A stretch of DNA of 64,000 nt from Candidatus Eisenbacteria bacterium (GTDB taxonomy: Bacteria; Eisenbacteria; RBG-16-71-46; CAIMUX01; JAHJDP01). This document shows, piece by piece, positions 17,748 through 44,027 of the stretch. The stretch spans positions 1-64,000 of the forward strand of contig JAHJDP010000034.1 of assembly GCA_018831195.1 (NCBI GenBank), written 5' to 3'. Below the pieces are notes generated by a model. That model was not told the origin of the DNA. It searched no databases and worked only from the letters and a program-made list of their open reading frames with translations. Position 1 is the first letter of the stretch, and each line of letters begins with the position of its first letter. The position numbers and the translations under genes are program-made.

Positions 17748-17787
17748 GACCTATCCTCCTCCAGATTCCAAAGTCCGCCTTATTCCA

Positions 17788-17950: not shown

Positions 17951-18054
17951 AAAAAAGAATGGATGCCTCTTTAAAAATTCAACGTGCGCCGGGGAGGAGG
18001 TCTCAATAGGCCTTCATACCGCATTAACTGATCCCTTCACTTTTTTTTCAGAAT

Positions 18055-18072
18055 TTGGCAAGGCTTATGCAT
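18055..18072 (+). promoter_or_regulatory. Sigma54 (-24/-12) promoter for the small membrane protein gene
   Basis: The sequence TTGGCAAGGCTTATGCATAA has GG at 18057-18058 and GC at 18069-18070, separated by exactly 10 nt, with a strong TTGGCA -24 element. The predicted transcription start near 18082 is about 40 bp before the ATG at 18122. Confidence 0.75.
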
Positions 18073-18121
18073 AACCTAGGGATCGTAAGTTTGGACAAGA
18101 CCTGAAACGGAGGGTAGTAAA

Positions 18122-27999: not shown

Positions 28000-28090
28000 A
28001 AAACCTCAAGCCCGCTGCTGAGCCTGATATTGTTAAAACCTCAGGCGCCGCTGCTGAGCCTGATAGTGTCAAAATCTCAAGCGCCGCTGA
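28000..28090. repeat. ~36-bp tandem repeat (2.5 copies) at the 3' end of rnfA
   Basis: Units 28000-28034 and 28035-28070 are nearly identical (AAAACCTCA...GCTGCTGAGCCTGATA). A partial third at 28071-28090 runs into the rnfA stop codon and last codons. Read in the rnfA direction, the repeats lie after the stop and echo its last codons (SGA-stop). Confidence 0.8.
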
Positions 28091-28655
28091 ACAGGCCTGC
28101 GAATCCCATAAAGGCCAAAGAGAGAATACCGGCGATAAGGAGATTCATCGCCGTGCCCCGCACGACGGCGGGGATGTCGGAAAGCTCCGCTTCCTCCCGC
28201 AATCCGGCCATCAGAACCAGGGCGAGGGTCAAACCCGCGCCGGCGCCAAGGGCGAAGACCAATCCCTGCGCCAGGCCGTATCCCCGATTTGTCTGAAAGA
28301 TGGCGAGACCCAGGATGGCGCAGTTTGTCGTAATCAGCGGCAGGAAGATACCCAGGGCGCGGAAGAGGGCCGGGCTCAGTTTTTTGATCACCATCTCCAC
28401 AAACTGCACGGTACTGGCGATAACGACGATGTAGCTGATCAGCTGCAGATAGGGCGCGTGGACCAGAATGTAGGTGTTGAGGGTCCAGGCGCAGATCGAG
28501 GTGATCACCATGACGAAGATATTCGCCAGACCGAGCCGGAAGGCGACGATGAGGCGTCCCGAAACACCGAAGAAAGGACAGAGGCCGAGGAAATAGGTCA
28601 GCGTGAAATTGTTAATGATCATGGCGCTGATGAAGATCCAGAAGAGATATGCCAT
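28077..28655 (-). CDS. rnfA: Rnf complex subunit A
   Basis: The protein has 192 residues and six membrane helices. The family signature is clear: INNFTLTYFLGLCPFFGV, VIASTVQFVEMVIKK, LPLITTNCAILGLAIF and a GAGAGLTLALVLMAGLREE C-terminal half. RnfA and RnfE form the membrane core that holds a [2Fe-2S] or Fe centre through two conserved Cys, here in GLCPFF and TNCAIL. Rnf couples electron flow between ferredoxin and NAD+ to Na+ or H+ pumping. The ATG overlaps the rnfE stop (ATTAA junction). Its 3' end runs into a 36-bp tandem repeat. Confidence 0.95.
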   Translation of the reverse strand: MAYLFWIFISAMIINNFTLTYFLGLCPFFGVSGRLIVAFRLGLANIFVMVITSICAWTLNTYILVHAPYLQLISYIVVIASTVQFVEMVIKKLSPALFRALGIFLPLITTNCAILGLAIFQTNRGYGLAQGLVFALGAGAGLTLALVLMAGLREEAELSDIPAVVRGTAMNLLIAGILSLAFMGFAGLFSGA

Positions 28656-29302
28656 TAGGCCGTCCTCCTCGCCAGCGCCTTAGCCCGGTTCAGGCGCCGC
28701 TGTGTCATGGCGTTGAAGACAAGCAGGATCAGACCCAGCATGATGAAGCCTCCCGGCGGCAGGATCATGATGACCCACGGCTCAAAGCTGGGGCCGAAGA
28801 GATCAATGCCGAAGAGCGAGCCGCTGCCGAGGATCTCCCGGACGGAGCCGAGACAGAGCAGGGCGAAAGCAAATCCGATGGCCATCCCCAGAGCGTCCAG
28901 AACCGACATCCAGACGGTGTTTCGCGACGCAAAAGCCTCCTGCCGGCCCAGAATGATGCAGTTGACGACGATGAGGGCGATAAAGGCGCCCAGCGCGCGG
29001 TGCACATCGGGGACCAGCGCTTTCAACGCGAAGTCGGCGACGGTGACGAAGGTCGCGATAATAATGATATAAGTCGAGATCCGCACCTGTTTGGGAATAT
29101 AGTTCCGCAGCAAGGAAACGAGGAAACTCGAGCCGACCAAAACAAAGAAGGTCGCCGCTCCCATGGCGAGGGCGTTGATGGCGCTGTTGGTGACGGCCAG
29201 CATGGGGCACATGCCAAGAACTTGCACAAAGATCGGGTTTTCCTTCCAGATCCCTTTAACAAATTCGGCGTAGGCCGCGCCCGGATCTTTAATTTCGGCC
29301 AT
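28655..29302 (-). CDS. rnfE: Rnf complex subunit E
   Basis: The protein has 215 residues and six membrane helices. Signatures: NPIFVQVLGMCPMLAVTNSA, YIIIIATFVTVADFALKAL, GAFIALIVVNCIILGRQEAF and GNP-like tail residues ending RAKALARRTA. It is the inverted partner of RnfA, contributing the second Cys pair (GMCPML, VNCIIL) to the membrane Fe centre. It follows rnfG by 3 bp and overlaps rnfA, as in other Rnf operons (order C-D-G-E-A). Confidence 0.95.
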   Translation of the reverse strand: MAEIKDPGAAYAEFVKGIWKENPIFVQVLGMCPMLAVTNSAINALAMGAATFFVLVGSSFLVSLLRNYIPKQVRISTYIIIIATFVTVADFALKALVPDVHRALGAFIALIVVNCIILGRQEAFASRNTVWMSVLDALGMAIGFAFALLCLGSVREILGSGSLFGIDLFGPSFEPWVIMILPPGGFIMLGLILLVFNAMTQRRLNRAKALARRTA

Positions 29303-29305: not shown

Positions 29306-30046
29306 TTATTGCCCCCCCTCGTTGGCTGGAGGATGGTCGTCGTTCATCGAAGGCGCTTGGCCCTCGGCCGGAGCCTCGCCACGGGCCGCCGGCGGTTCGC
29401 TTCCCGGTTCCGGCAGCAGCGGGACCCATGTGGCATTCCCCGCGTTGAGGATTTTGACGACCGCTTTGGATGAGATCGTGGCGCCGGTAATCGCATCAAT
29501 CTCATTCGCGGCCGATTTTGCGCCCTTCTTGACGGCGCGGATCTCCGGCTCAACGCTGAGCCGCTGGAAGTTCTGTTTAAAATCGGCGTCCTTGATAATC
29601 TTGTCGCCCAGCCCGGGTGTCTCGCGGCTTTCGAGGATCTGAAGTCCGACGACTGTTTTTTCCGCCGGATTGTAGCCATAGATCAATTTGATCACATCCT
29701 GGAACCCCGAGCCTTCATGCGGGATGGCGTAGCCGAGGAATTGCGCGTCGGCATTATAAGCGGCATAGATCGCCGCCGCGCCTTTCGCCTCCTCCTCGCC
29801 GACAACGATGAGGCGTCCATCTTGTACAATAAGTTTCTGCATCGTGCTGGACCCTGGAACGACCTGAAAAACAGCCGCCCGCAGAGCCCGCGCCTGATTT
29901 TCCGTGATTCTCGGCAAGGTCCATTCATACATCCCGACAATCATCAGGCCGGAAAAGAGACCGGCCAGCCCCAGCGTCATGATCATCCGCAGCGAACTCA
30001 CCTGGGACGCGGCGGGGGTGGCGTCGGTTTGGCCTGCCTGGCTCAT
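29306..30046 (-). CDS. rnfG: Rnf complex subunit G (covalent FMN subunit)
   Basis: The protein has 246 residues. One N-terminal membrane helix (about 20-42) anchors a periplasmic FMN-binding domain. The flavinylation site is DAITGATISSKAV near residue 190, matching the [S/D]GAT consensus with a Thr for FMN attachment by ApbE, which is encoded in the same run. A Pro/Ala-rich tail of about 40 residues (EPGSEPPAARGEAPAEG) extends past the domain and is longer than in typical RnfG. The ATG overlaps the rnfD stop (ATGA). Confidence 0.94.
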   Translation of the reverse strand: MSQAGQTDATPAASQVSSLRMIMTLGLAGLFSGLMIVGMYEWTLPRITENQARALRAAVFQVVPGSSTMQKLIVQDGRLIVVGEEEAKGAAAIYAAYNADAQFLGYAIPHEGSGFQDVIKLIYGYNPAEKTVVGLQILESRETPGLGDKIIKDADFKQNFQRLSVEPEIRAVKKGAKSAANEIDAITGATISSKAVVKILNAGNATWVPLLPEPGSEPPAARGEAPAEGQAPSMNDDHPPANEGGQ

Positions 30047-31062
30047 GAAGATCTCCCCCGTCCAAAGGCCCGCGGTTGAATGGATCGTTCAATCAGCGGC
30101 GCGGCCGCATTCATAAGAAGGATCGCGTACATCACACCCTCGGGAAGACCGCCGAAGAGGCGGATCAGGACAACGAGCACACCGATCCCCGCGCCGAAAA
30201 TCCAAGTCGCTTTCGGCGACAGGGGCGAGGTGACCGGATCGGTCGCCATATAAATAGTGCCGAAGAGCAAACCACCGGAGAGAAGCATGAACCACGGGGC
30301 CGGATACTGCTGCGGCGCAATGAGAAAAAGGAGCGTCGAGAAGACCGCCACCGACAGCAGAATCGAGACAGGGATGCGCCAGTCAAAAATCCGCCGGGCC
30401 AGCATAACAGCGCCGCAAAGGATAATGATGAGGGCGCTTGTTTCACCGAGCGAACCGCCGGTCTGGCCGATCAGCAGAGCCTGCCAATCGGTCGACTGAT
30501 GCTGAAATTTCATGAGGGCGAGGGGCGTGGCGGTCGTGACGGCGTCGGCGGCGCCGTGAAGAAAGGGGAGGGCCAGATTCTGCCCGCGGATCGAGAGGAA
30601 TTCGTTAAAGCCGCCGTGAACCGACCAGGAGGTCAGGGTTGTGGGAAAGGAAGCCTGAAGAAAGGCTCTTCCGACAAGGGCCGGATTGAAAAGGTTTTGC
30701 CCCAGTCCGCCCCAAATGAGTTTGCCGAGACCGATGCCGACAACGCCCCCGATAAAGGCCATCCAGAGCGGGATGCCGGGCGGCAATGTGAGCCCGAGGA
30801 GAAGGCCGGTGAGGATCGCGCTTCCATCACGCAGGGTGACCCAGCGCGGCCGCTGCGATCCCAATCCCCATTCGGTGGCGATCGCGCCGAGGATCGCGGC
30901 GAAAACGACCAGGAGCGCGCTGAGGCCGAAGAAATAGATGGCGGCGATGAGGACCGGCAGTACGGAAAGGATCACCTCGAGCATCAATCGGGGCGTCGAT
31001 ATTTCCCGTTTGAGGAAGGGGGATGTTTGTATAAGAAGCCTATGATCAAGAGAAGGGGCCAT
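30043..31062 (-). CDS. rnfD: Rnf complex subunit D (membrane FMN subunit)
   Basis: The protein has 339 residues and about ten membrane helices. The FMN-attachment region DAVTTATPLALMK near residue 165 matches the covalent Thr site of RnfD and NqrB. TGLLLGLTLPPGIPLW and GGLLFGTIYMATDPVTSP are also typical. The ATG at 31062 overlaps the rnfC stop (TGATG); a GTG 3 bp earlier would also overlap. RnfD moves electrons across the membrane between RnfC/RnfB on one side and RnfG on the other. Confidence 0.95.
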   Translation of the reverse strand: MAPSLDHRLLIQTSPFLKREISTPRLMLEVILSVLPVLIAAIYFFGLSALLVVFAAILGAIATEWGLGSQRPRWVTLRDGSAILTGLLLGLTLPPGIPLWMAFIGGVVGIGLGKLIWGGLGQNLFNPALVGRAFLQASFPTTLTSWSVHGGFNEFLSIRGQNLALPFLHGAADAVTTATPLALMKFQHQSTDWQALLIGQTGGSLGETSALIIILCGAVMLARRIFDWRIPVSILLSVAVFSTLLFLIAPQQYPAPWFMLLSGGLLFGTIYMATDPVTSPLSPKATWIFGAGIGVLVVLIRLFGGLPEGVMYAILLMNAAAPLIERSIQPRAFGRGRSS

Positions 31063-32393
31063 CACTTTGCCTTCCGCTCACGGAGGGCCCCCTTGGCCAC
31101 TCGGATGAGTTGAATAATCGGAATATGCGAGGGACATGAAAACGAGCAGGATCCGCACTCCATGCAGTCCATAATGTGCATCTTCTCCATCTCTTCGTAC
31201 CGGCCTGCTTTGGCAAGACGTCCCAGCAGTGACGCGTTTAGAAAGTTTGGACAGGCGTCCAGGCATCGCCCGCAGCGAACGCAAGCATATTCGGTCGGGA
31301 AATGAGTTTCCACCTCTGTGAAGGCGAGCAGGCCGGATGTTCCTTTTAAAACCGGAACATCGAGGCTCGCGAGGGGCATCCCCATCATCGGCCCGCCCAT
31401 CACAACCAATTTTGTCTCGGGGAGGAGGCCGCCGCAATGATCGAGAACGTCCCGCACCAGCGTGCCGATCGGAATCATGAGATTCGCCGGCCGTTTGATA
31501 CCCGGTCCGGAGACGGTCACCATCCGTTCGATCATGGGGATGCCGCGATCGAAATAATCAGCCAGCGCCGCCATCGTGCCCACATTGTTGACGACGATAT
31601 TGACATCGAGCGGAAGCTTGCCCGCCGGCACCTCGACACCGAAAAGGGCCTTGATGAGCATCTTCTCCGCGCCTTGCGGATATTTAACTTTGAGGGGCAC
31701 GACATGGACCGGCCGGCCGCCGGTGGCGGGGCGGCGCAGCGCCTCAACCGCATCGGGCTTGTTTTGTTCAATGCCGATCGTTGTCGATTTAACCCCGAGT
31801 TTTTCCGCGACGATCTCGATCCCGCGGAGGATCGCATCGGCCCGCTCCACCATGATCCGGTGGTCGCACGTGAGGAAGGGCTCGCATTCGCATCCGTTGA
31901 TGACGAGCCGCTCGATCTGCTTTCCCTCCGGCACGGCATATTTGACATGCGTCGGAAAGGCCGCGCCTCCCAGCCCGACCAAGCCTGCCTTTTGCACATG
32001 ATCGACAAATTCTTTTGAGCTCATCGAACGCCAATCCAAGGGAGGCTTTGCCGCGAGTTTCTGTGTTGCGAAGGGATCGGCTTCGATTTCGATCGCCGGC
32101 TGAAGTTGTCCGTTGGGATGGCGATGCACCGCGATCGACGTGACGGTTCCGGACACGGGGCTGTGCAGGGCCATCGAGACAAAAGCGCCCGGCTCGGCGA
32201 TCAGCTGCCCCCGCCTGACCGTTTCACCCGGACGGACAATCGGCTTGACCGGTGCGCCGGTGTGCTGGCTCAGCGGCAGGATATACCGTTTTGTGAACGG
32301 CATCCGCTCGACCGGCATGCATTCGGTGGCCTTTTTGTATTCCTCGGGATGGATGCCGTGCCGGAAAGTCGGTAATGTTAAAGATAAACTCAC
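31062..32393 (-). CDS. rnfC: Rnf complex subunit C (NADH/FMN/FeS)
   Basis: The protein has 443 residues. It contains the lipoyl-like N-terminus (HTGAPVKPIVRPGETVRRGQ), the FMN/NADH Rossmann-like core (GLGGAAFPTHVKY, INGCECEPFLTCDH) and two [4Fe-4S] motifs near the C-terminus (CVRCGRCLDACP and CMECGSCSFSCP). RnfC is the cytosolic NADH-oxidising or NAD+-reducing subunit. The GTG at 32393 overlaps the stop of the 1571-residue PFOR-like gene by 4 bp (GTGA). At 443 residues it lacks the long Ala/Lys-rich C-terminal tail of E. coli RsxC. Confidence 0.95.
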   Translation of the reverse strand: MSLSLTLPTFRHGIHPEEYKKATECMPVERMPFTKRYILPLSQHTGAPVKPIVRPGETVRRGQLIAEPGAFVSMALHSPVSGTVTSIAVHRHPNGQLQPAIEIEADPFATQKLAAKPPLDWRSMSSKEFVDHVQKAGLVGLGGAAFPTHVKYAVPEGKQIERLVINGCECEPFLTCDHRIMVERADAILRGIEIVAEKLGVKSTTIGIEQNKPDAVEALRRPATGGRPVHVVPLKVKYPQGAEKMLIKALFGVEVPAGKLPLDVNIVVNNVGTMAALADYFDRGIPMIERMVTVSGPGIKRPANLMIPIGTLVRDVLDHCGGLLPETKLVVMGGPMMGMPLASLDVPVLKGTSGLLAFTEVETHFPTEYACVRCGRCLDACPNFLNASLLGRLAKAGRYEEMEKMHIMDCMECGSCSFSCPSHIPIIQLIRVAKGALRERKAK

Positions 32394-35300
32394 GATGCCG
32401 CATCCTCATCCTGTCCGTTGCCGGGTGATCGCCGATGTCCGGCCAATGCCATCATCCGCTGCTGGAGGCGCTGGGCCATCTCGGCGCGGATTTCATCGCC
32501 GATGTCGTTGATCCGCCCTTCATAGTCATTGCGGAGAGCGGCCAGCTGCGCTTCATGATGAGCCTGAACTTCCGCTGCGGCCTCTTCCTTGACCCTCTGC
32601 GTGAAGGGCGTGACAAGACCCGCCCACTCCTGAAGCATCCGCCAGATATCGAGGCGCCATTGGGCAAAGGCCACCGCTGCGGGTGAACATTTTAAACGTC
32701 TTTCCGCGCTCTCACGGGTGGCATCTCTGTTTTTCCCCGCCGTCTTCACCACAACGAGGGGTGTTTTCCCGAAACGCTGAAGCGCCGGCAATCTGAGGTA
32801 ATCGATGATGGGAGTCGGAGATGGATCGCTCGCTTGGAGATCGCTGAAATGGTGGACGAAACGGCGCTCCGTCACCATCCAATCGAAAACGGTGGTGAAG
32901 GATCCCTCTTTGCTCTGGATCCCATCACCCTGGACCCCCTCGGCCTGGGTCCAGTCGGCTTTCATATTCTGATTGCCGGAAAGATCAAGCCGGGCGCCGA
33001 AGACGCCTTCGGCGGCGGGATCATAGGTATAAAGCGGGAAGGCCCGCGAGCGTACCGCCAGGCCGGCGTGTTCCACCGCGATATCTTCCGCGAAGCCGTG
33101 CCGATCCGGTTTCGGCGCATGAATGTGAATCAAGGCCGGGCCGGGATGGCGGAGAGCCTTCAGGACCCCCTCGGTGAGATGGGCGCCGTGCGCGATCGAT
33201 GATTGTACAATATAGGCGTTGCGCTGCATCAGTCCCAGGATCCCCGGGTCGCCGCCGGCGCCTCCAGTAGAGAGGCCCGGGTTGAGGGCATCCATGCCGG
33301 GATCCAGATTCTCAGCAAGATCGGACAATAGAACGACCTTGACCGGGAGATCCGAACCGAGCAGAGAAGCCAGTTGCGCCGCGCTTTCACCGCCCAGAAC
33401 CCGTCCGTCGCCGACAAGGATCAAGGACGGGCATAACGACCTTTCTTCAGGTGTCAGATCGCGCCAGGTTAACTTTTCCAACCCCCGCACAGAGCGAATC
33501 GCCTCGAGCGGCTTGTCCAGCTCCAAGAGAGCCCGCCGAATGTCCCGGAAATCCTCGAGCACCTCATCGAGGAGCCCCTCGGCCAGCCCCTTGGCCAATT
33601 CCACTGTTTCGCCGCTGTCATCGAGGACGATCGGAAGGGCGTAGGGATTATAGGGGAACGATCCGGCCCATGAGGTTGTGGAGCCCTCCGCCACGGCCAT
33701 CGCCGCGCGGGCGCGGCCCATCCCCGCCGGTCCCTTTTCCAAACGCCATCGATGATCAACCAGCCGCTGTGCTGAATCGACAAGCCGGCCCAGCCTTTCG
33801 CCGTCGACCTGCTTTGTTTTGCAGGCTTCGTTGATCTTTTCAGCAAAGGCGGCCAGATCGAGATCCTGCCGGCCCAGGGAATCCAATCCCGATGAGAGCA
33901 GCTGGAGATCTTCGGTGGGAAGGGCGTCGGCCAGTGTTTCCCGGATCTTCGCGGCGAGACGATCCTGCAAGGATGCGATCTTCTTAAGATGATCTTGAAG
34001 GAGGGGCTGAAGATGGTACTCCGCCGCCGCCAGCACCCATCGCAGGGCGGTCTTTTCGCCGGATCCGGCTTCGGCGCCGTCGCCGCCGGCGGGAGAGAGG
34101 CTGCAATGGCGTGATAACAACATCGCTGCGGGCTGCCCGACATCGGGATGATGCGACAGCCGGGAGATATTTTCACCGCTCGTATCGGGAAGCTCTTCCC
34201 ACACTTTGCGGAGGGCCTGCGCCGCGGCCTGCCGATCCGGCGTTTGCGGTCCGGCGGTCATGGCGCCCGGCTCGCAGGATGTGATGCAGGCGGAGCAACC
34301 CTTGCACGTTTCCGGATTGATGACGACGGAAAGCAGACTCCCGCTTCCCGGCGCTTTCTTTTCAGGTTCCTCAAGGAAGGGAATTGTACAAGCCACGGGA
34401 AGTTTTCCGACAGCCGCGGCCACCGGTTTGAAGGCGCTCTCCAGCTCTTTCCGTCGCTCCGCGGAGGGGGCCATCTTTTCCATCAGCCAGTTGAAGGCCG
34501 TCGTGAGGGGTCCGCCCAGTGTTTCATCCGAAGGCGCCTCGGCCTTCCCCTTAAGTAGCAGGGAGTGGGTTCGCGCGGCCAGCTTTGCAACAACCGGCCG
34601 GAGGGCATCGGCCTGATCTCCCCGAGCCTTGGCCATTCTGATACCGGCCTCCAGCAGTTCGACGGCGCTCAGGGCGATCGGCCCGATAGCCCCTTCGGGG
34701 CACACGGACCAGCAGTTCCCGCAACCGGTGCAGGGCGCCGGATTGAAGTGGGGCATAATCTTGCGGTTTTTAGAGAGATCCCGGAATGTTGAAGAGAGGG
34801 GCGGAACGGTTCCCAGAGCGAGGTAGGGGTCGGGTGTGATCTGCTCTTCTTCGTCCTTTTGATAGAGAACCCCCACCTGATCCCAAAACCGGGAAAGGTT
34901 GTCATCATCGGCGTCGATCCGGCCGAGACGGCGCACCGACATCGGGATTTCGGGATCCGCCTCGACCGCGGCGGCCCTCTCCGCGATGCCCGGGTCTTGA
35001 ATCAGTTGTACATTCTCCATGCCGCTCCGGAAGCTGTCGAGGCGACTGGCCCCTTCCGCGTCATCCTGCTCATGCAGAAATTCTTCATAGGACGAAAGAA
35101 TTTTTCGCGGTTTTAAATCGCTGTCCCGTTTCGCCAACAATCCCGTCAAGGCTCCCAAAATCCGTTCTGAAATCCTTGAAGGGAAATCGCCGGATGCGGG
35201 ATCAGCGGATAAGGAATCGCCCGATGCGGGTTCATTAGCCGGCACGGCATAAAGATCGAGTTGCCACTCTTCTCTCTTTTGGTGGAGAGCGGGGGCCAAA

Positions 35301-37105
35301 CGGAGAGGCTCTTCTTCCCCTCCGCGGGTGACGACAAGCAACGCGCCGCCGACAGCCATTCTTGGAAGCGTGACGTTGAGATCAGAATCCGTCACGACCG
35401 CAACATCGATCGGGTGATCATCACCCGGCTCGAGGATCGAATCCTCCCCCAAAACGATGCGGTCTATGCAGACACGGTCCCGCCGGTCCCAGATCAATTC
35501 GGGCCGACACCGGGCCCCGCCGCCAAAGGATTTGTAAAGCAGGGCGGCCGCCTCTGCCGCGATGGCGCCGGTCTCTTCTCCTTCATTTCGTATAAAGGCC
35601 ACCGAAAGCTTCGCACCGCAACCGGCGGCCTTATCCGCGGAGAGCACTGATGTGGAATGCACGCCGAGTTCAGCCACATCCGGGTAATCCCGCCGGACTC
35701 TTTCGAGGAGGATCTCTCGTTTCGGATAGGAGGAATGGGCGGGAAGAAAATCGATCCCCAAATAAACGCGGCTCCGCCCCCCCTTGGCTACTTCATGGAT
35801 CCATTTCTCAAGGTCGGCTTCCCGGAGCGGGAAACCGCCGATCCCATAGATTGCGGAATGGAGATGCGGAGGGGGGCCGCTCCATGATGGGGCGCCCTCA
35901 CGGGACGGCGCCGCGGATCCATTCTCGATTGCTTCATCGATGAGGGCTCGGAGTTCCCGCGTGAGCGGGGGATCGGTGGAGAGTGGGGTATCGACGCGTT
36001 CCAGAACAATCACCCTCTTCTTGCCGCGTAGGATCGCGGTCAGTTCCCTGGCGGGGAAAGGGCGAAGGGTTCGGATGCCCAGCACGCCGATCTTCATCTT
36101 TTCCCGGTCCCGGAGTCTTGACGCGACGCGCTCCAACGTTTCGACCGCCGCACCCTGGCCGACGAGAAGAATTTCCGCATCGCCCTCTCTAAAAACCGAT
36201 ATGGGATCCAAAAGGCGCCCGGTCTTTTTCGCAAAGGACGCCATCGCTTCGTCCAGGCAGCTTGAGAGATGATTGTAAAAGAAGGGCCGCCGGGCCGCCA
36301 TGCCGAGTCCCCACATATCGGCTTTTTTATAAGCGCCTTGCAGGGCCGGGCGGTCGAGATTAAAACGGCGGGGGACGCGCCGGCGCATGGGGCCGAAGAG
36401 CATTTCCTGTGACGGCGTCGGCGCCGGGATTTCATCCTGCGGATTGCCGGTGAATTTGCGGATCGTTGCGGGACCCAGAAGTTGTACATTTTGAGGCGCC
36501 AGGGCCGTGAGATGTCCGTCCATGGCCACGAGTCCTGGAATGAGAGCCCGCTCGGCGACGCGCCGGGCGATAAGATTGAGATCGACGGCTTCTTGTACAT
36601 TGCGGGCAAAGAGCAAAAAGAAACCGGTGTCGGCCGCGAGGTGATAAGCGTCATGTCCTGATCCGGCGGACGCTCCGTTGGCGGAGAGGACCCGGCAGGA
36701 CATATTAATGACGAGGGGAAGGTGCCGGCCCGCGGCGAGGGTCATCAGGTCGAGGGCGGAGGCGACATCGGATCCGGCCATAAAGATCGCCGGGCGGACA
36801 CCGGCGAGAGAGAGACCCATGCCGGTTGATAGGGATCCGCGGGAACGGCCGGACGCCATGGTTATCAGCGATCGGCCGAAGAGGTTCACCTCTTCCCGGT
36901 TTCTTTCGTTGTTCCACGCGCGAACAGCCCGCGCGGCGGGGAAGGAGGCGGCATTGGGAAGGGCGCCGGCCAGGCAGGCCTCGGTCATGGCGACGGCGGT
37001 GGCGCCGTCAAGCAGGGCCTCAATTCCTTCCTTGGGGTTCTCTGCGAGGTCTCTCTTTGGGCCGTCTCCACGAAATCGGCGCAGGAACTCAGTGAGACTT
37101 GGCAT
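32390..37105 (-). CDS. 1571-residue PFOR-derived iron-sulfur protein embedded in the Rnf operon
   Basis: Domains follow pyruvate:ferredoxin oxidoreductase order: I/II (about 20-430; SRGSLSTGMGLSLAG, IGVLGIRTLRPFPARE), a gamma-like domain (about 490-620; VAFIRNEGEETGAIAAEAA), a two-cluster ferredoxin domain (CTGCGNCWSVCP near 790, CKGCSACITSCEPG near 933) and a domain VI-like region (about 1100-1500). GDG survives near 1230, but the rest of the thiamine-diphosphate motif (the ...NT/LDTEVYSNTGGQ part in nifJ here) is replaced by PVKVVLLSDL. Catalysis is therefore doubtful. A charged helical tail ends the protein. It overlaps rnfB by 17 bp and rnfC by 4 bp. Likely role, inferred: electron transfer between ferredoxin or Kor and Rnf. 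Confidence 0.8.
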   Translation of the reverse strand: MPSLTEFLRRFRGDGPKRDLAENPKEGIEALLDGATAVAMTEACLAGALPNAASFPAARAVRAWNNERNREEVNLFGRSLITMASGRSRGSLSTGMGLSLAGVRPAIFMAGSDVASALDLMTLAAGRHLPLVINMSCRVLSANGASAGSGHDAYHLAADTGFFLLFARNVQEAVDLNLIARRVAERALIPGLVAMDGHLTALAPQNVQLLGPATIRKFTGNPQDEIPAPTPSQEMLFGPMRRRVPRRFNLDRPALQGAYKKADMWGLGMAARRPFFYNHLSSCLDEAMASFAKKTGRLLDPISVFREGDAEILLVGQGAAVETLERVASRLRDREKMKIGVLGIRTLRPFPARELTAILRGKKRVIVLERVDTPLSTDPPLTRELRALIDEAIENGSAAPSREGAPSWSGPPPHLHSAIYGIGGFPLREADLEKWIHEVAKGGRSRVYLGIDFLPAHSSYPKREILLERVRRDYPDVAELGVHSTSVLSADKAAGCGAKLSVAFIRNEGEETGAIAAEAAALLYKSFGGGARCRPELIWDRRDRVCIDRIVLGEDSILEPGDDHPIDVAVVTDSDLNVTLPRMAVGGALLVVTRGGEEEPLRLAPALHQKREEWQLDLYAVPANEPASGDSLSADPASGDFPSRISERILGALTGLLAKRDSDLKPRKILSSYEEFLHEQDDAEGASRLDSFRSGMENVQLIQDPGIAERAAAVEADPEIPMSVRRLGRIDADDDNLSRFWDQVGVLYQKDEEEQITPDPYLALGTVPPLSSTFRDLSKNRKIMPHFNPAPCTGCGNCWSVCPEGAIGPIALSAVELLEAGIRMAKARGDQADALRPVVAKLAARTHSLLLKGKAEAPSDETLGGPLTTAFNWLMEKMAPSAERRKELESAFKPVAAAVGKLPVACTIPFLEEPEKKAPGSGSLLSVVINPETCKGCSACITSCEPGAMTAGPQTPDRQAAAQALRKVWEELPDTSGENISRLSHHPDVGQPAAMLLSRHCSLSPAGGDGAEAGSGEKTALRWVLAAAEYHLQPLLQDHLKKIASLQDRLAAKIRETLADALPTEDLQLLSSGLDSLGRQDLDLAAFAEKINEACKTKQVDGERLGRLVDSAQRLVDHRWRLEKGPAGMGRARAAMAVAEGSTTSWAGSFPYNPYALPIVLDDSGETVELAKGLAEGLLDEVLEDFRDIRRALLELDKPLEAIRSVRGLEKLTWRDLTPEERSLCPSLILVGDGRVLGGESAAQLASLLGSDLPVKVVLLSDLAENLDPGMDALNPGLSTGGAGGDPGILGLMQRNAYIVQSSIAHGAHLTEGVLKALRHPGPALIHIHAPKPDRHGFAEDIAVEHAGLAVRSRAFPLYTYDPAAEGVFGARLDLSGNQNMKADWTQAEGVQGDGIQSKEGSFTTVFDWMVTERRFVHHFSDLQASDPSPTPIIDYLRLPALQRFGKTPLVVVKTAGKNRDATRESAERRLKCSPAAVAFAQWRLDIWRMLQEWAGLVTPFTQRVKEEAAAEVQAHHEAQLAALRNDYEGRINDIGDEIRAEMAQRLQQRMMALAGHRRSPGNGQDEDAAS

Positions 37106-37964
37106 AACGTCTCCCGATCCCGGACAGAGGATCTTCGGTTATAAATTGTCGTCCGGTGACCCACTGGATCGCACCCGTGGGGCAGCGGAATGTGGCTTCA
37201 GGTTTCATCCGGATCGAACTATTGTAGCTGACCACCGGCAGGTTATTCACCGTCGCTATGAGACCGGCGGGCGCGTCCTGAACGCACCGGCCGCAGGCGT
37301 CGCAGGCGACACGGCATAGCGCCAAGGCCTCTTCTCCGGCCAGGGGCACGCTGCACTGCACCAGGAGAGGTTTATCCAAGGGCAGGATCTCGAAAAGATT
37401 CCTGGGGCAAACCTCAACGCAATCGCCGCAGGCGGTGCATTTTTCAATGTCTACTATCGGAAGTCCGTCGGCATTCATATGAATGGCGTCGAAAGTACAA
37501 GCCGTGTCGCAATCGCCCAAGCCCAGGCATCCCCAGGCGCACCCTTTGCCGCCGCCTGAAACGATCGCCGCCGCGCGGCAGGTGCCGTATCCCTCATAGG
37601 CGGCGATTTGAAGGGCCTGGGAACGTCCGCCCGCGCAATGCAGGCGGGCGACGCGCTTCTCCTGAGTGCCGGGATCGACGCCGAGGAACTCAGCGATCGC
37701 CTCGACGGCGTCAGGGCTCGAAACGGTGCATCCTCCGGGAAGCCGGCGTCCCTCGAGAAGGGCCTCGGCGAAGGCATGGCAGCCGGGTTCCCCGCAGGCG
37801 CCGCAATTGGTGCCGGGGAGCATCGCTTCGACACTCTCCAAACGGGGATCCTCCGGGACATTCAAAAAACGGTATGCGACAGCCAGGACTCCGGCAAAGA
37901 AGAAGCCAAGACCGGCCATGATCCCCGCGGCCATGATGACGCTGCTCAAGCGTCCTCCCTCCAC
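37089..37964 (-). CDS. rnfB: Rnf complex subunit B (multi-FeS)
   Basis: The protein has 291 residues. One N-terminal membrane helix is followed by the Fe4S4 domain NCGACGEPGCHAFAEAL, a second Cys group (CAWGCLGLGDCDTAC), and ferredoxin motifs CTACGDCVEVCP and CDACGRCVQDAP. The CP of the last motif is changed to QD. RnfB is the subunit that exchanges electrons with soluble ferredoxin. It normally precedes or follows the other rnf genes directly; here it lies between the two PFOR-like genes, which suggests that those proteins contact it. Confidence 0.93.
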   Translation of the reverse strand: MEGGRLSSVIMAAGIMAGLGFFFAGVLAVAYRFLNVPEDPRLESVEAMLPGTNCGACGEPGCHAFAEALLEGRRLPGGCTVSSPDAVEAIAEFLGVDPGTQEKRVARLHCAGGRSQALQIAAYEGYGTCRAAAIVSGGGKGCAWGCLGLGDCDTACTFDAIHMNADGLPIVDIEKCTACGDCVEVCPRNLFEILPLDKPLLVQCSVPLAGEEALALCRVACDACGRCVQDAPAGLIATVNNLPVVSYNSSIRMKPEATFRCPTGAIQWVTGRQFITEDPLSGIGRRYAKSH

Positions 37965-37967
37965 TCG

Positions 37968-40511
37968 TTAAACGTTGAATGGCTCCGCGCGCCGGATCAA
38001 ATCTTCGAGATTCGGCTCATCAGGATTTAATGGTTTTCCGGGATGGATGCAGCGACCCGGGCACTTTTCCGCGGCAGCCACCAGCTGAGCGAATGTGCCG
38101 GCATGTGGATCGCCGATACGAACCTGTTTATTTTCGTCATAAACGAAAAGCAGCGGATTGATAACAGTGCAATCATTGCAACTTGTACAAAGCGGTGTGC
38201 CGACCCAAGGCTCATCGAAGGATATATCCTCCTCCGCCTCCGCCGGTCCGGCCGCTTCCGCCCGCGTCTCAGCCTCTGCCGGATCAGAGGGAGCCGGCGC
38301 GGTGGGAGCTTTCGACCTCGCCGGCGCCGCCGGGGACGCCGCCCTCGGGGTCGATAGCGGCGCCGTCATGGCTCCGGCATCCAGATCCAGGAGCATGGCC
38401 GCCAGGCCGCCCATCGCCTCCGAGGCGGCTTCTTCTCTCATCCTCTTAAGTTCATCGGCATGCGTTGCCTGCAGTTGCTCCCGCTCGACGCGATACTTTG
38501 CTTCTGCTTCCGCTTGCGCCTTCCGCGTCGCCTCTCGGACATATTCGTTGCGGATCCCAGCCAGTTCTTGAAGGGTGCGCCAGTAATCCAGCCGGTCTTT
38601 GCAGGCCAAGGCCAGGCGCCGGGTGATGGCGAGGCGCTGCAAGCGCCCCTCGTGATCAACGCCCCAGACAAAGGGGATTCGGACAATAGCTTCATCCCGC
38701 TCAAGATCGAGGTAGTCGGCGATCGAAACGAGATCTTCGCTGACGATAGGTTCGGGGATAGCCTTAAAATGGCGGCGAAAATCGGGCTCCAACAGGGCGA
38801 AGTCGGCGAATGTGAAGGCCGCGGTGATGGAAATTTCTTCGCCACCGGATTTCCGGCAGGTGAGATTGTGGATGGACCAGTTCTCTTCAGCATTCGGGTT
38901 CCCGCTGAAATGCAAGCGGCTTGCCCAGCTGGATCCGGATTCAGGATTGTAACGGAACAGGGGATGAGCCCGGCTCTCAATGGCGGCGCCGGCATGAAGC
39001 CAGGCATCAAGCCGGCCTTGCATCCGGCTTGAATCAAAGCCGCAGGCGATGAGGTGCAACGAGGCGTGGGTTGCCGCGAGTCCGGCGAGATACCCTTCCA
39101 TAAGATGATCGGGACGGGCGGCGGAGGATTGTTGAACCAGCGCTTCCCGGTGTCCGATTCCGAGGAATCCTAATTCCAAATGGTATCCGTGAAGGGCCTT
39201 TTGACCCCGGGCGGCGGGATTCTGTGCCGGGTCATGCGGGACCAGGACTTGAATCGGCTTTCCGGAAAGAATCAATTGTGAAAGTGAAAGCATTCCTTTT
39301 CCGGCAAGGCGCTCTGATGACTCCAGCGCTATAACAACCGGGAGCAGTAGGAACTCCTCTTTCGAAAAGGATTCCCAATCGAATTCCGCAAACCAGGGAT
39401 CGTGATGCTCAGGATGGTAGGATCCCTCAATCTCCAAAGTAGCGATGCGAACGGCTCGGAATATTTCGGTAAATTGGGCCGCATGCCGCTGAAAATGTAT
39501 CAGGGCGCCGGCGCAGGGGTCGGGCTCCTCAATCAGCCGTCCATTGCACTCATCCTCGGAAACCGGCAATGGCAGCGATCCGTCATGGACAATCGCGACG
39601 ATCGGATCGGAGTCCTGGGCCAGATAGCTTTCAAGCAGCCCCAGGACATGCTCAATCCGCCGTTTTCGTTCCGGCGCCATGAGCGGCGCACCCCGCCAGG
39701 AACCAAGGACACTGGAGAGCTTTCGCGGATCCACAAAATCGGCGCCGGTACCGCCGAGCTCCCCGCGCAGAGCCTCCGGCATTCTGGAAGCAGGACCCTT
39801 ATGCCGTTCAATAGTGAGAAGCTCCTTCAGATGATGGCGAAGCTGTTTTACATTATCTCTGAAGGCGGCGCGGCGGGGATTCAGTTTGTGATGCGCCGCG
39901 TGAATCAGAAGGCGCAGCGATGAAGAGTCCGTGAAGGAGAGAAACCATCCACCCTGGGGCGCTTGTTTGAGAAATGTTTCAAGATCGGCTCCGAGGTTTT
40001 CGGCGTTCTCTCCGGCCAGCGAAAGATTTCTTTTTAGCTGTTCCCCCGCCTGCGCCAGGACCTTTCCCGCCGGATGGAGACCCGGTTTCTTGTATAACGC
40101 CTCACGGATGTCGCGCTCGAGACGCAGCAGATTATCGCGCAGGATGCGGGCTTGGCCCGGATTCGGCGCGAAGGAATCAAGGGTTTCCGAAAGCAATTCG
40201 GAGAGGGGAAGAATCAATCGCTCTCCATCACCGCTCTTTGATGGGTAAAGATAAAGAGGGTAGTTTGTCCGGACCCGGGAAGCATCTTTGAAGCGATAGA
40301 GAAGAGCGGGGGAGAACTCCTCTGGTGATGAATCGCCGGAACCGGGTTCATCATTGAGGGAGAGATGAAAGTGGCGAAGCGCGTTCAGGCTCTCGGGGTC
40401 CGCCTCACGGCCGGAGTCGGACCCGGTGTCGGGCAGGAGGGGCCGTTCCTGCATTCCAGCCGGGGATCCGGCTGGTGGCGCTGATTCGACTTCGGGATAA
40501 GCAGGGTCCAT
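37968..40511 (-). CDS. 847-residue PFOR domain VI-like protein with C-terminal ferredoxin module
   Basis: The N-terminal 380 residues are helical and unassigned. Residues of about 380-690 align with the domain VI-like region of the 1571-residue neighbour: ALVQQSSAARPDHLMEGYL against YIVQSSIAHGAHLTEGVL, and FADFALLEPDFRRHF against FDWMVTERRFVHHF. No GDG thiamine motif remains. A charged coiled coil (about 655-710) and an Ala/Pro-rich linker lead to a ferredoxin-like module with CTSCNDC near 774 and CPGRCIHPGKP near 816. The ATG at 40511 has GAGGA 7 nt upstream; a GTG at 40547 also has a ribosome-binding site. It lies 3 bp before rnfB. Confidence 0.75.
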   Translation of the reverse strand: MDPAYPEVESAPPAGSPAGMQERPLLPDTGSDSGREADPESLNALRHFHLSLNDEPGSGDSSPEEFSPALLYRFKDASRVRTNYPLYLYPSKSGDGERLILPLSELLSETLDSFAPNPGQARILRDNLLRLERDIREALYKKPGLHPAGKVLAQAGEQLKRNLSLAGENAENLGADLETFLKQAPQGGWFLSFTDSSSLRLLIHAAHHKLNPRRAAFRDNVKQLRHHLKELLTIERHKGPASRMPEALRGELGGTGADFVDPRKLSSVLGSWRGAPLMAPERKRRIEHVLGLLESYLAQDSDPIVAIVHDGSLPLPVSEDECNGRLIEEPDPCAGALIHFQRHAAQFTEIFRAVRIATLEIEGSYHPEHHDPWFAEFDWESFSKEEFLLLPVVIALESSERLAGKGMLSLSQLILSGKPIQVLVPHDPAQNPAARGQKALHGYHLELGFLGIGHREALVQQSSAARPDHLMEGYLAGLAATHASLHLIACGFDSSRMQGRLDAWLHAGAAIESRAHPLFRYNPESGSSWASRLHFSGNPNAEENWSIHNLTCRKSGGEEISITAAFTFADFALLEPDFRRHFKAIPEPIVSEDLVSIADYLDLERDEAIVRIPFVWGVDHEGRLQRLAITRRLALACKDRLDYWRTLQELAGIRNEYVREATRKAQAEAEAKYRVEREQLQATHADELKRMREEAASEAMGGLAAMLLDLDAGAMTAPLSTPRAASPAAPARSKAPTAPAPSDPAEAETRAEAAGPAEAEEDISFDEPWVGTPLCTSCNDCTVINPLLFVYDENKQVRIGDPHAGTFAQLVAAAEKCPGRCIHPGKPLNPDEPNLEDLIRRAEPFNV

Positions 40512-40565: not shown

Positions 40566-41519
40566 TTAAATGGCGAACCGGTCCAGTTCTTTTTCGAGGG
40601 CCGTCAATTTGTCTTCGACGGGCATGTCCATGCCGACCGCCGTGTGATCGTTGTAGCACGGCCGGTCCGGGTCGCAGAAGAGCAGCCCGATAGGCAGAGG
40701 GTCGTGTTCCAGAGCCAGTTTTTGGGCTCCCGCGAGATCGAGAGGGTTGTGTTCCTGCTGGGTTTTATACATTTTGGCGACGGCGGGGTCCACTTGGATG
40801 CCCTTGTCATGGGTCAGCAGGTTCAGATGTGAGGGGTCCTGCTGCATTTCATCGTACATTTTCCCGGTATAGGTCGGGCAGCGCTGCAGAATCCGGACAA
40901 AGCTGAATCCCTTATGCTTGTGGGCGGCCTGGAGAGTGGCCAACAGATGCGCCGGGTTCCAATCGACCGTCTGCGCCACGAAGGAGACATTGGTGACGCC
41001 CAGGGTGACGCCAAGAGGATTCAATGGCGGCAGCCAGGCGCCCTCGGGGTGCGTGTTCGTTGATAGCCCCTTGGGGCTGGTCGGCGAGGTTTGGTTTTTT
41101 GTCAGCCCGTAGACATGATTGTCAAAAAGCATCACCGTCATGTCCATGTTGTATCGGATGGCGTGAACCCAATGCGCCGTCCCGATCGAGCAACAATCCC
41201 CATCACCCGTCGCCACAAAGAGGGTCAGGTCGGGGCGTCGCGACTTGATCCCGCAGGCCACCGGAAAAGCCCGCCCGTGAAGCCCATGAAAACCATAGGT
41301 ATTCATGTAGTGAGGGAAACGACTCGAACAACCGATCCCGGAAACCGACACGATTTTCTCGGGGGGAATCTGCTCGTCACGGCAGATCCGCTGCACCGCG
41401 GTGAGGATGGCAAGGTCGCCGCAACCCGGACACCAGCGGGGTTCGCCGCCCTCGTAGTCTTCTAATGTGAAATACCGGGGGGATACATCCAATGGCCAAT
41501 CCGCTTTAAGCCCGAACAT
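40566..41519 (-). CDS. korB: 2-oxoacid:ferredoxin oxidoreductase, beta subunit
   Basis: The protein has 317 residues. Thiamine-diphosphate motifs are complete: WCPGCGDLAILTAVQR, SGIGCSSRFPHYMNTYGFHG, GDGDCCSIGTAHWVHAIRYN and DNHVYGLTKNQTSPT. The Cys residues of the first two motifs and a later Cys hold one [4Fe-4S] cluster. With the alpha subunit it oxidises a 2-oxoacid (2-oxoglutarate or pyruvate) and CoA to acyl-CoA and CO2, reducing ferredoxin. Substrate cannot be fixed from sequence. Its ATG overlaps the korA stop (TAATG). The next gene, 55 bp downstream, is the 847-residue PFOR-like gene. Confidence 0.92.
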   Translation of the reverse strand: MFGLKADWPLDVSPRYFTLEDYEGGEPRWCPGCGDLAILTAVQRICRDEQIPPEKIVSVSGIGCSSRFPHYMNTYGFHGLHGRAFPVACGIKSRRPDLTLFVATGDGDCCSIGTAHWVHAIRYNMDMTVMLFDNHVYGLTKNQTSPTSPKGLSTNTHPEGAWLPPLNPLGVTLGVTNVSFVAQTVDWNPAHLLATLQAAHKHKGFSFVRILQRCPTYTGKMYDEMQQDPSHLNLLTHDKGIQVDPAVAKMYKTQQEHNPLDLAGAQKLALEHDPLPIGLLFCDPDRPCYNDHTAVGMDMPVEDKLTALEKELDRFAI

Positions 41520-43390
41520 TATACGTCTCCTTTCATCGCGTCATGTATCCGGATGATCTCTTTATATACAAGTCCGGGCGGCAAGGGTTGACCTGGCACG
41601 GTGGACCAGAAGTCGACATCGACCGCAGTCATCGCCCGCAAAATATAGGCCAGCTGGGCGGGGCGGCGGTTTTCCGGTGTGATCCCCGGTTGATCGAGCT
41701 GATCACTGTAGTTGATTTCGACCGTCATGACTTTGCGGAAGCGCGCAAAGATCTCCTTCAAGCCGGGTTCCAGCGGGGACAGAAATCGCAGGTGGAGGGA
41801 GGAAATCTTCCGTCCTTCGGCGCGGATCCGGTCGACGGCCTCATCAATCGATCCCAGCGTCGATCCCCAGCCGACGACGAGCAGGTCACCTTCCGGATCG
41901 CCGTGAATCTTCGGCGGTTTCAGTGTCTGTTGCAGGGTCGCCATCTTGCGGCTGCGCATATTGCAGCCGATCTGGTTGGAGTACGGATCGTAGGCCACCT
42001 TGCTGTAATTCGTGTGGGCCAGCCCCGTGAGGACATATTCGCCGCCTGGCTGTCCCGGTATCGGCCGCGGCGACAAACCGGTTTGTTCATCCCAATCGTA
42101 GGGTGGTGTGTTCTTATCCCAAGGGGATTGATCCAATGGAGGAGGGTACCACTCGGCATTGACTTGTGGACGGGGGTAGGGTTGGACCCCTGTGGCGAGA
42201 TTCGCGTCGGTGAGAACCATGACCGGCGTCCGGAAGGCCTCAGCCAACCGCCGCGCTGTTATCATGAAATGAAAACACTCCTCGATCGTCGCGGCCGCCA
42301 TGATGACTTTGGGGGCGTCACCCGGCGCGCCGAAAGCGGCTGCCAACAGGTCCCCCTGTTCCACCTTCGTCGGAAGCCCTGTGCTCGGCCCCCCGCGTTG
42401 AACCACGACGATCACCAGCGGAATCTCGGCCATGACGCCGAGACCGATAAACTCGGTTTTCAACGCCATTCCCGGACCGGAGGTGATGGTGCAGGTCGTC
42501 TTGCCGGCATAGGAGGAACCTAGAGCAAAACCGATGGCGGCGATCTCATCCTCGGCCTGATGGAGACAACCGCCGACCTTGTGAATGATACTGGCTATGT
42601 AGTGAGAGGCCGATGTCGCCGGGGTGATCGGGTACATGGCGACGGTCTCCATCCCGGCCGCCATGACGCCGAGACCGATGGCCTGGTTTCCATTGGAGAC
42701 GATGAGGGGCTTGTCATTCGGCCAGGGGGGGATCTCGTAACAGAGATCCAGGTTTTCCGCCGCGAAGATCTCTCCCGCTTCGAGAAGTCTGTGGTTCAGC
42801 GAGATGACTTTCTCGCCCTTCCGGGAGAATATCAGCGCGATCTCATTTTTCGCCTCTTCGAGTCCCCGCTGATAGATGTGGCAGAGCATGCCGAGGACGA
42901 ACATATTTTTGCCGAGCAGGGGGTTGGGTGTGATCTCCCGGCAGGCCGCTTCCATCGGTAATTCGTGTACGATATAACCGCGGTTTTCGAAATCCTGCAG
43001 GGCGGCCGCATATTGACCGCGGATCGCTTCGATCGGATCATCGGCCCATTTATTTTCCAGAATGACGTGGGTTCCCTTTTTGTAGGCGCCTTGGGCGATC
43101 CGTCCATAGAGGACCTGCTCGTTAAAAGCGACGACCAAATCGGCCTCATCACCCATATTGGTCATATCGGTGGAGCCGATTCGGACTCGGATGCCGCTGG
43201 CCCCGGCTGGTGATCGGGAGGGCGGCTTGATTTCGGCAGGGATGATCTCCACGGTCCAAACGCCGTTCCCCTTCTTGGCGCTGACCATGCCGAATGTCTG
43301 TCCAGCCTTTTGAGCCCCTTCACCGGAGTCACTCACGATCTCGACAATATGCTCGCCAAGTCGTACAGGCGCCCTGTGTTGGGTCTCCAT
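41519..43390 (-). CDS. korA: 2-oxoacid:ferredoxin oxidoreductase, gamma-alpha fused subunit
   Basis: The protein has 623 residues. The gamma domain (about 1-190; GEGAQKAGQTFGMVSA, RIGSTDMTNMGDEADLVVA) is fused to the alpha domain, which has YPITPATSASHYI, EDEIAAIGFALGSSYAG and TSGPGMALKTEFIGL. The fused gamma-alpha form is the usual two-subunit Kor layout. The ATG at 43390 is chosen because AAGGAGGG lies 7 nt upstream; the frame is open 48 bp further but without a ribosome-binding site. It heads the run of twelve co-directional genes ending with apbE, and so probably follows the main promoter of the Kor-Rnf operon. Confidence 0.93.
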   Translation of the reverse strand: METQHRAPVRLGEHIVEIVSDSGEGAQKAGQTFGMVSAKKGNGVWTVEIIPAEIKPPSRSPAGASGIRVRIGSTDMTNMGDEADLVVAFNEQVLYGRIAQGAYKKGTHVILENKWADDPIEAIRGQYAAALQDFENRGYIVHELPMEAACREITPNPLLGKNMFVLGMLCHIYQRGLEEAKNEIALIFSRKGEKVISLNHRLLEAGEIFAAENLDLCYEIPPWPNDKPLIVSNGNQAIGLGVMAAGMETVAMYPITPATSASHYIASIIHKVGGCLHQAEDEIAAIGFALGSSYAGKTTCTITSGPGMALKTEFIGLGVMAEIPLVIVVVQRGGPSTGLPTKVEQGDLLAAAFGAPGDAPKVIMAAATIEECFHFMITARRLAEAFRTPVMVLTDANLATGVQPYPRPQVNAEWYPPPLDQSPWDKNTPPYDWDEQTGLSPRPIPGQPGGEYVLTGLAHTNYSKVAYDPYSNQIGCNMRSRKMATLQQTLKPPKIHGDPEGDLLVVGWGSTLGSIDEAVDRIRAEGRKISSLHLRFLSPLEPGLKEIFARFRKVMTVEINYSDQLDQPGITPENRRPAQLAYILRAMTAVDVDFWSTVPGQPLPPGLVYKEIIRIHDAMKGDV

Positions 43391-44027
43391 GGATTTTCCC
43401 TCCTTGGGAATAACCGAGGTCTTTGAAGGTGTCGTCATCTGGTTCGTCCCCCAGAACTCTGTTCACAACAGAAGGGCATCCTCACTTTTCCAAAACCATC
43501 AGGACGATTCTTCCAGGCTCTTCAATATCTCAAGCGCCTGGAAGTGTCCCAGGTGTTCATGGGAAAGGGGATGCTTCTTGGTTTCTTAGTTTTTTGAAAG
43601 GTCTCCCGCCGTCTGCTCTGCGTCTCAGGGCGGAATGTGAGCCGTGCAAGAGAGGCTTTGGATCAGAGGACTTCAGGTGGCCTTCGGCCCTGCTCAGGAT
43701 CTCAGTGAGATTCGGGGAGTCCTCGAAGATCTGGTCCCTCGCGCCCCGGGCCGGGTGCACGGCACGCGAGCTGCTCTCGGACAACGGATACCTCCTGCGG
43801 CCGAATCCGCGTCGCCAGGATCCATAAGGTGTAGCGGCCTAAGCTTTTGTCTATAAAGATCGGCCCCTTCTAAACGACGCTTCAAAGGTCATTGTATATG
43901 CCGCAAACATGGTTGCCAAGATACAACATCATCATGCCTGCATGCAAGTGGCCCTAATACGCACACCCGGTCCATCTTCTCGATGAAACCGGGTGTGAGC
44001 CCTCTGCAGCCATGTTCAGCGCCAGCA
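43391..44027. other. 637-bp intergenic region between nifJ and korA
   Basis: I find no supported gene. It holds the nifJ terminator hairpin (43962-43997), a CCTGG...CCAGG inverted repeat near 43541-43557 and the strong korA ribosome-binding site. A short minus-strand frame near 43557-43784 (75 codons) has neither a good start nor recognisable features. The korA promoter should lie here but no consensus element stands out. Confidence 0.5.
43962..43997 (-). terminator. Hairpin downstream of nifJ
   Basis: A perfect 10-bp stem, CACACCCGGT with ACCGGGTGTG, encloses a 16-nt loop that has its own CATC/GATG pairing. It lies 30 bp after the nifJ stop. The T-run is weak (CGTATTAGG on the minus strand), so termination may be partial and could allow readthrough into korA. 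Confidence 0.6.

Follow-up and report, generated by a model that had tools for sequence, protein, structure and literature searches.

An rnf operon with two PFOR-derived genes

We analyzed a 64 000-nucleotide stretch of a Candidatus Eisenbacteria bacterium genome (assembly GCA_018831195.1, contig JAHJDP010000034.1, positions 1–64 000; hereafter "the window"), in which an operon for the ion-pumping Rnf complex includes genes for two large proteins of 847 and 1571 residues, here called P847 and P1571. The genes run on the minus strand in the order nifJ, korA, korB, P847, rnfB, P1571, rnfC, rnfD, rnfG, rnfE, rnfA, apbE, and the whole rnf module lies on this strand, reaching down to 26615, where apbE ends (Table 1). 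P847 is separated from rnfB by 3 bp, rnfB and P1571 overlap by 17 bp, and P1571 and rnfC by 4 bp. A preliminary description, made from the letters alone, had proposed that P847 and P1571 form an undescribed soluble electron-input module for Rnf; the open reading frames, gene order and spacings that it gave agree with ours, as does a complete nifJ upstream.

All six genes expected of an Rnf complex (rnfB, C, D, G, E, and A) are complete and adjacent, and the order rnfD-G-E-A is the same as in homologous loci. nifJ lies upstream of korA on the same strand, across a gap of 589 bp. The window genome, which like many others used here is a draft or metagenome-assembled genome, is 99% complete; it has one true rnfC and, on contig C23, a second KorA of the ordinary kind. 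Counting the latter and nifJ, it encodes at least three 2-oxoacid oxidoreductases.

P847 and P1571 are catalytically dead relatives of PFOR

P847 and P1571 are paralogues, with 29% identity over P1571 residues 1183–1548 (E = 7e-25). Pfam models recognize POR_N, PFOR_II, and two 4Fe-4S motifs in P1571, and in P847 only a Fer4_13-like terminal site, marginally below the cut-off of 24.5 bits. In hhalign comparisons with an intact fusion of pyruvate:ferredoxin oxidoreductase (PFOR) and ferredoxin, P1571 corresponds to residues 15–1537 (E = 6e-200) and P847 to residues 730–1648 (E = 3e-110), i.e. from domain V onward. From these placements, P1571 is a near-full-length paralogue without the terminal ferredoxin and P847 a truncated one that has kept it. 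The shared region thus extends beyond domain VI, where the preliminary description had located it; the paralogy, the ferredoxin-type Cys clusters on both proteins, and the missing thiamine site were correctly identified.

In the window P1571, E, S, S, and K occupy the four Cys positions of the proximal cluster, and the Glu that activates thiamine pyrophosphate (TPP), the Thr31 equivalent, and the Mg-TPP ligands of domain VI are absent, setting it apart from PFORs. Against the equivalog model TIGR02176 (cut-off 911), P1571 scored 114 bits and intact rnf-embedded relatives 426 and 402 bits; P847 gave zero match. The fold is nonetheless that of the PFOR superfamily: in addition to the Pfam and hhalign matches of P1571, the top Protein Data Bank matches of an AlphaFold2 model of P847 (mean predicted local distance difference test score, pLDDT, 80) were all PFOR in Foldseek searches, and a model of P1571, which spans residues 1–1195 only at pLDDT 69 and is adequate for fold but not for pocket geometry, likewise matched PFOR best (6ciq, E = 6e-35). 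Neither protein is a PFOR, and both belong to the PFOR fold family. At the level of sequence, P847 and P1571 are confirmed as paralogous PFOR-derived proteins that have lost the thiamine site.

Table 1. Features of the rnf operon and its surroundings in the window
Feature	Position	Strand	Remarks
nifJ	44028–47552	minus	complete; TIGR02176 1842 bits, cut-off 911
korA, 2-oxoacid oxidoreductase alpha(+gamma) subunit	41519–43438	minus	TIGR03710 489 bits; catalytic motifs intact
korB, TPP/4Fe-4S subunit	40566–41519	minus	TPP_enzyme_C E = 5e-26; four cluster Cys and Mg-TPP motif intact
P847, PFOR domain V–VI remnant and terminal ferredoxin domain	37968–40511	minus	alternative GTG start at 40547
P847, dead domain-VI-like region (residues 346–650)	38562–39476	minus	contains ALVQQSSAARPDHLMEGYL
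P847, terminal 4Fe-4S ferredoxin domain	38049–38189	minus	CTSCNDC...CPGRC; Fer4_13 24.0 bits
rnfB	37089–37964	minus	FeS PF04060 4e-13; RnfB-type models 1e-56
P1571, full-length PFOR-like pseudoenzyme	32390–37105	minus	lacks TPP site and proximal cluster
P1571, domain I remnant (POR_N)	36398–36838	minus	E = 1.1e-17; T31 and E64 equivalents lost
P1571, domain II (PFOR_II)	35933–36178	minus	E = 3.1e-13
P1571, first 4Fe-4S motif	34700–34732	minus	CTGCGNCWSVC
P1571, second 4Fe-4S motif	34274–34306	minus	CKGCSACITSC
P1571, degenerate domain VI	32456–34084	minus	GDGAEAGSG, GDGRVLGG, and SDLAENLD replace cluster and Mg-TPP motifs
rnfC	31062–32393	minus	complete; TIGR01945 527 bits, cut-off 246
rnfD	30043–31065	minus	open reading frame
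rnfG	29306–30046	minus	open reading frame
rnfE	28655–29302	minus	open reading frame
rnfA	28077–28655	minus	open reading frame
apbE-like flavin transferase	26615–27679	minus	3' of rnfA; named from sequence

Four arrangements of homologous loci

Around 70 homologous loci were collected from Planctomycetota, Eisenbacteria, Myxococcota, and Beta/Gammaproteobacteria. A search with a P847 alignment returned 38 named loci, a scan of the genome collection with P1571 as a single protein found nothing, and a further search covered sampled genomes, 392 of them from Planctomycetota and 369 from Gammaproteobacteria; ∼50 neighborhoods were inspected. The counts given here derive from samples, "near" means inside the stretch fetched, and the trees are quick searches.

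The loci fall into four types. Type A, as in the window, has the order korA-korB-P847-rnfB-P1571-rnfC-D-G-E-A. Type B consists of rnfB, a protein of 1640–1700 amino acids, and rnfC-D-G-E-A, with korAB not adjoining; it occurs in Thiobacillaceae, Hydrogenophilaceae, Gallionellaceae, many Gammaproteobacteria, and a few Planctomycetota, and its presence in the cultured strain Parasulfuritortus cantonensis (L067) makes direct testing possible. Type AB, found mostly in Planctomycetota, reads korA-korB, a protein of ∼332 amino acids, rnfB, a protein of 1680–1790 amino acids or more, and rnfC-D-G-E-A, often followed by an apbE-like frame 3' of rnfA as in the window. Type C, from Burkholderiales, comprises korA-korB-P847, and rnf is absent. 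Types can coexist: two gammaproteobacterial genomes (G808 and G677) and G054 carry type A together with type B, and G053 carries types A and AB.

The large protein of types B and AB is a complete PFOR relative with domains I, II, and III, ferredoxin motifs, a TPP-binding domain VI, and an extra C-terminal ferredoxin domain that scores above the Pfam cut-off. We surveyed 22 functional positions, namely the equivalents of Thr31, Glu64, and Arg114, the proximal, medial, and distal Cys, the Mg-TPP ligands, and the Cys of the terminal ferredoxin, and all 22 were intact in 31 of 31 type B/AB proteins. In type A the ferredoxin domain is instead located on P847, KorAB is intact, and the large protein is dead in all 19 loci, where the Glu and Thr equivalents and every proximal Cys are gone and the domain VI motif is destroyed. 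The eight medial and distal Cys are kept in 13 of these 19 and lost in the other six, all from Planctomycetota. This loss indicates that the clusters are dispensable and favors a scaffold role for P1571 over that of an obligatory electron wire, a candidate function that we dropped.

In types B and AB an intact TPP enzyme is encoded between rnfB and rnfC, so the window represents a decayed derivative and not the basic form of the operon. The preliminary description had named an intact thiamine-dependent activity of the 1571-residue protein as what would speak against its module; the protein itself lacks the site, and the type B/AB relatives in the same position have it, as judged from their residues. 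The series as a whole suggests the conversion of an enzyme into a scaffold: position and fold are kept, and the active site is dead where there is a second catalyst.

P1571 sequences form a single clade (Shimodaira–Hasegawa approximate likelihood ratio test, SH-aLRT, 100) on long branches that denote fast evolution and leave its position relative to types AB and B uncertain. Fast evolution, together with the lost catalytic residues, would also be expected if P1571 and P847 were decaying pseudogenes, an explanation that we find hardly credible given full-length open frames, a retained operon position, 34–42% identity between the window protein and eight of nine relatives of P1571 in other lineages, and a mean column identity of 49%.

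The 332-amino-acid protein between korB and rnfB of type AB (L114:10709–11707, L117:4599–5606, L120:15870–16871, and L122:13659–14657) has zero Pfam matches and is a shrunken P847 without the ferredoxin domain, corresponding to P847 residues 206–553 in profile comparison (E = 1.6e-10). Type AB has two catalysts, KorAB and an intact PFOR, in one Rnf operon.

Linkage to a distinct Rnf lineage

In every fetched locus that has enough contig and encodes a full-length large protein with a terminal ferredoxin, this protein lies between rnfB and rnfC. Such rnf-linked loci come from Planctomycetota, Myxococcota, and Proteobacteria; Eisenbacteria contribute type A, which the other phyla have too. Unlinked relatives without the terminal ferredoxin serve as an internal control for this linkage: rnf genes were not found near L248 and L249 (1482 and 1472 amino acids, sharing 53% and 51% identity with the type B reference), nor near the more distant L128–L130, within the stretches fetched. 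The expectation in the preliminary description that homologues adjoin rnf genes therefore holds for the full-length, ferredoxin-bearing family, and fails for type C P847, which stands away from rnf. The three distant relatives are free-standing intact PFOR relatives of 1550–1630 amino acids from Planctomycetota (L128:9469–14169, L129:9575–14470, and L130:5421–10070), ∼35% identical to the rnf-embedded enzyme, with neither a terminal ferredoxin domain nor rnf.

In a tree with 51 ordinary RnfC from the same phyla, the RnfC sequences of module operons fall into a single clade of 57 rows (SH-aLRT 98), and within it types B, AB, and A each group together, type A with the exception of one row. The module operons are thus a distinct Rnf lineage that has traveled with its partner. 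Module operons are a minority of Rnf: rnfC is present in 101 of 392 Planctomycetota genomes and the module in ∼23, and in the window's phylum the corresponding numbers are 16 and 3 of 47 genomes.

Contact between proteins cannot be proven by operon co-location, and the genes might be co-transcribed for metabolic reasons only, pairing 2-oxoacid oxidation with ferredoxin recycling, with proteins that never touch Rnf. We consider this quite improbable, since the insertion interrupts rnf itself, parting rnfB from rnfC in dozens of loci across several phyla and with one specific RnfC clade, and the embedded enzyme has its own acceptor domain.

A role of P1571 and P847 in regulation or assembly, for instance as a sensor of 2-oxoacid/CoA or a chaperone gating Rnf, with KorAB still reducing ordinary ferredoxin, is also unlikely. 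A fold kept without its active site and the dispensable clusters of P1571 would suit such a role, but the first four Cys of the terminal ferredoxin are invariant in 15 of 15 P847 proteins, and large proteins carry this domain when intact and rnf-linked and lack it when unlinked.

KorAB and its probable partner P847

KorA and KorB have the catalytic and the TPP and cluster motifs, respectively, of a two-subunit 2-oxoacid:acceptor oxidoreductase. Across types A, AB, and C, the KorA motifs (YPITPATS, E, R) are conserved in 40 of 40 sequences and the KorB motifs (C30, C33, C64, and C214; GDGD/DN) in 41 of 41. Module-linked KorA forms a clade of its own, separate from the ordinary KorA that these genomes also encode (SH-aLRT 95); the KorA tree was used because ordinary KorB rows were too distant for an informative KorB tree.

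In every type A locus with enough sequence, korAB precedes P847. The three type C genomes tested gave no match for rnfC, so P847 must serve KorAB there in the absence of Rnf, which makes it a KorAB partner first. The same genomes weaken a candidate role of P847 as an Rnf subunit proper. An odhA gene, encoding the E1 component of 2-oxoglutarate dehydrogenase, lies near one type C locus and is consistent with 2-oxoglutarate as a KorAB substrate. The korAB-P847 loci without rnf belong to Burkholderiales (Rubrivivax and Rhizobacter; L066:9905–12115, L069:9731–12100, L071:9965–12166, L073:9899–12124, and L074:9911–12106).

These patterns bear on the electron-input module first proposed, read here as P847 and P1571 drawing electrons from NifJ or general ferredoxin without any particular tie to KorAB. 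Cluster motifs on both window proteins, nifJ upstream, and the constant proximity of rnfB in type A agree with it, and its core, PFOR-derived paralogues tied to rnfB and rnfC across phyla, stands. The point of entry is more likely KorAB, partnered by P847: P847 remains beside korAB in loci that lack rnf and has korAB 5' of it in type A, the P1571 clusters are lost in 6 of 19 proteins, and the intact relatives in the same slot are TPP enzymes rather than carriers. We therefore assign the KorAB-independent version a low probability.

A proposed 2-oxoacid oxidoreductase docked on Rnf

The reading that we moderately favor is a dedicated 2-oxoacid oxidoreductase docked on Rnf, with KorAB as catalyst, P847 as its partner, and P1571 as scaffold. 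The sequences establish the descent of P847 and P1571 from an intact PFOR–ferredoxin fusion like that between rnfB and rnfC in related operons, along with the residue losses, gene order, and clades. Docking, electron path, substrate, and direction of flow would under this reading be as follows. In type B, a PFOR-type enzyme would exchange electrons with RnfB, in either direction, through its terminal ferredoxin; in type AB, the addition of KorAB and a small partner would give a single Rnf two catalysts. In type A, with the PFOR-type catalyst dead, KorAB would be the sole TPP enzyme of the operon; P847 would dock on it, with the terminal ferredoxin domain accepting or donating its electrons, and P1571, a PFOR-shaped scaffold whose two additional 4Fe-4S clusters have been lost in some relatives, would keep KorAB–P847 at RnfB/RnfC.

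With 2-oxoacid couples at about −0.5 V and NAD+/NADH at −0.32 V, Rnf could pump ions when 2-oxoacids are oxidized, and the reverse would need an ion gradient. The complex might thus act as a 2-oxoacid:NAD+ oxidoreductase that stores the potential drop as an ion gradient and does not need diffusible ferredoxin, or, in reverse, as a reductive carboxylase powered by that gradient. Gene order, the RnfC clade, and domain content make P847 and P1571 candidate bound subunits of Rnf. A stronger version, possible though short of probable, is that of a ferredoxin-free supercomplex: a 2-oxoacid oxidoreductase would sit permanently on Rnf, namely an intact pyruvate synthase/oxidoreductase with a terminal ferredoxin domain in type B and KorAB on dead PFOR relatives in type A. 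If true, it would allow ion-pumping oxidation of 2-oxoacids by NAD+ and, reversed, would use NADH and an ion gradient to fix CO2 into pyruvate or 2-oxoglutarate.

Several points weigh against docked KorAB. Docking and direct electron transfer are deduced from gene order and domain content, and the link to 2-oxoglutarate from a family name and the one odhA neighbor. Type C P847 functions without Rnf, and its ferredoxin domain may serve another acceptor. The six Planctomycetota P1571 without cluster Cys mean that electrons need not cross P1571, which could have another role.

Rnf is known to exchange electrons with free ferredoxin or flavodoxin. The module suggests, on the sequence evidence, an Rnf wired directly to 2-oxoacid chemistry rather than dependent on free ferredoxin. 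If true, such an Rnf lineage, equipped with a 2-oxoacid oxidoreductase of its own, would represent a new coupling between an ion pump and central carbon chemistry, and might account for low-potential 2-oxoacid reactions in aerobic or autotrophic bacteria (Thiobacillaceae, Gallionellaceae, and Planctomycetota).

Comparison with known systems

Intact rnf-embedded relatives have the domain order I, II, III, V, VI and the TPP, proximal, and ferredoxin-domain residues of PFOR/NifJ (D. africanus and M. thermoacetica; 1b0p, 6cin), but are ∼450 residues longer, end in a Fer4_13 domain, and are located inside rnf; the window P1571 and P847 differ further in being catalytically dead. Pyruvate:NADP+ oxidoreductase of Euglena and Cryptosporidium is likewise a PFOR fused to its own electron-acceptor module, although there the acceptor is a cytochrome P450 reductase-like domain and a membrane pump is absent.

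The two-subunit KorAB enzymes (Magnetococcus 2-oxoglutarate:ferredoxin oxidoreductase, 6n2n; Sulfolobus 2-oxoacid:ferredoxin oxidoreductase, 5b46) share all catalytic motifs with KorA and KorB here, which differ in forming a separate KorA clade and in being accompanied by P847, a third partner that derives from PFOR and bears a ferredoxin domain. Helicobacter OorDABC (8ys5) also combines a 2-oxoacid oxidoreductase with a ferredoxin-type subunit, but is soluble, encoded outside an ion-pump operon, and without dead PFOR paralogues. Campylobacter and Helicobacter 2-oxoacid oxidoreductases supply complex I via flavodoxin.

The Rnf complexes of A. woodii, T. maritima, and A. vinelandii have the complete set of rnfB, C, D, G, E, and A in BCDGEA order, as does the window, where, in addition, enzyme-derived genes separate korB from rnfB and rnfB from rnfC. 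In a 2025 review of Rnf, the additional subunits listed, RnfH and a multihaem cytochrome, are unrelated to P847 and P1571 (PMC12174285), and a term search of a paper on rnf operon organization did not find such genes in the text searched (PMC4014512). PFOR in Gallionellaceae has been read as fermentation, and Rnf as nitrogenase supply or of unknown function; a PFOR–Rnf link was not found in these papers (PMC10734482, PMC10734462). A description of the P847/P1571 module was not found in the open-access literature, in line with its having been called undescribed, although this covers open-licence papers only and absence is not proof.

Neighbors of type B operons

A phosphoenolpyruvate (PEP) synthase gene lies directly 3' of rnfA in four of 30 type B loci (L060, L061, L169, and L172; family confirmed for three). 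These neighbors suggest pyruvate as the metabolite in those loci and fit a biosynthetic (reverse) flow there. Divergent from rnfB and upstream of it, 15 of the 30 loci carry a LysR-type regulator that is related among loci and CysB-like in L061, where it occupies 4371–5363 and the PEP synthase 16252–18648. A two-gene version of the PFOR branch, with proteins of ∼650–680 and 530–540 amino acids, occurs in Gammaproteobacteria away from rnf (L166:8469–12022 and L167:8030–11736).

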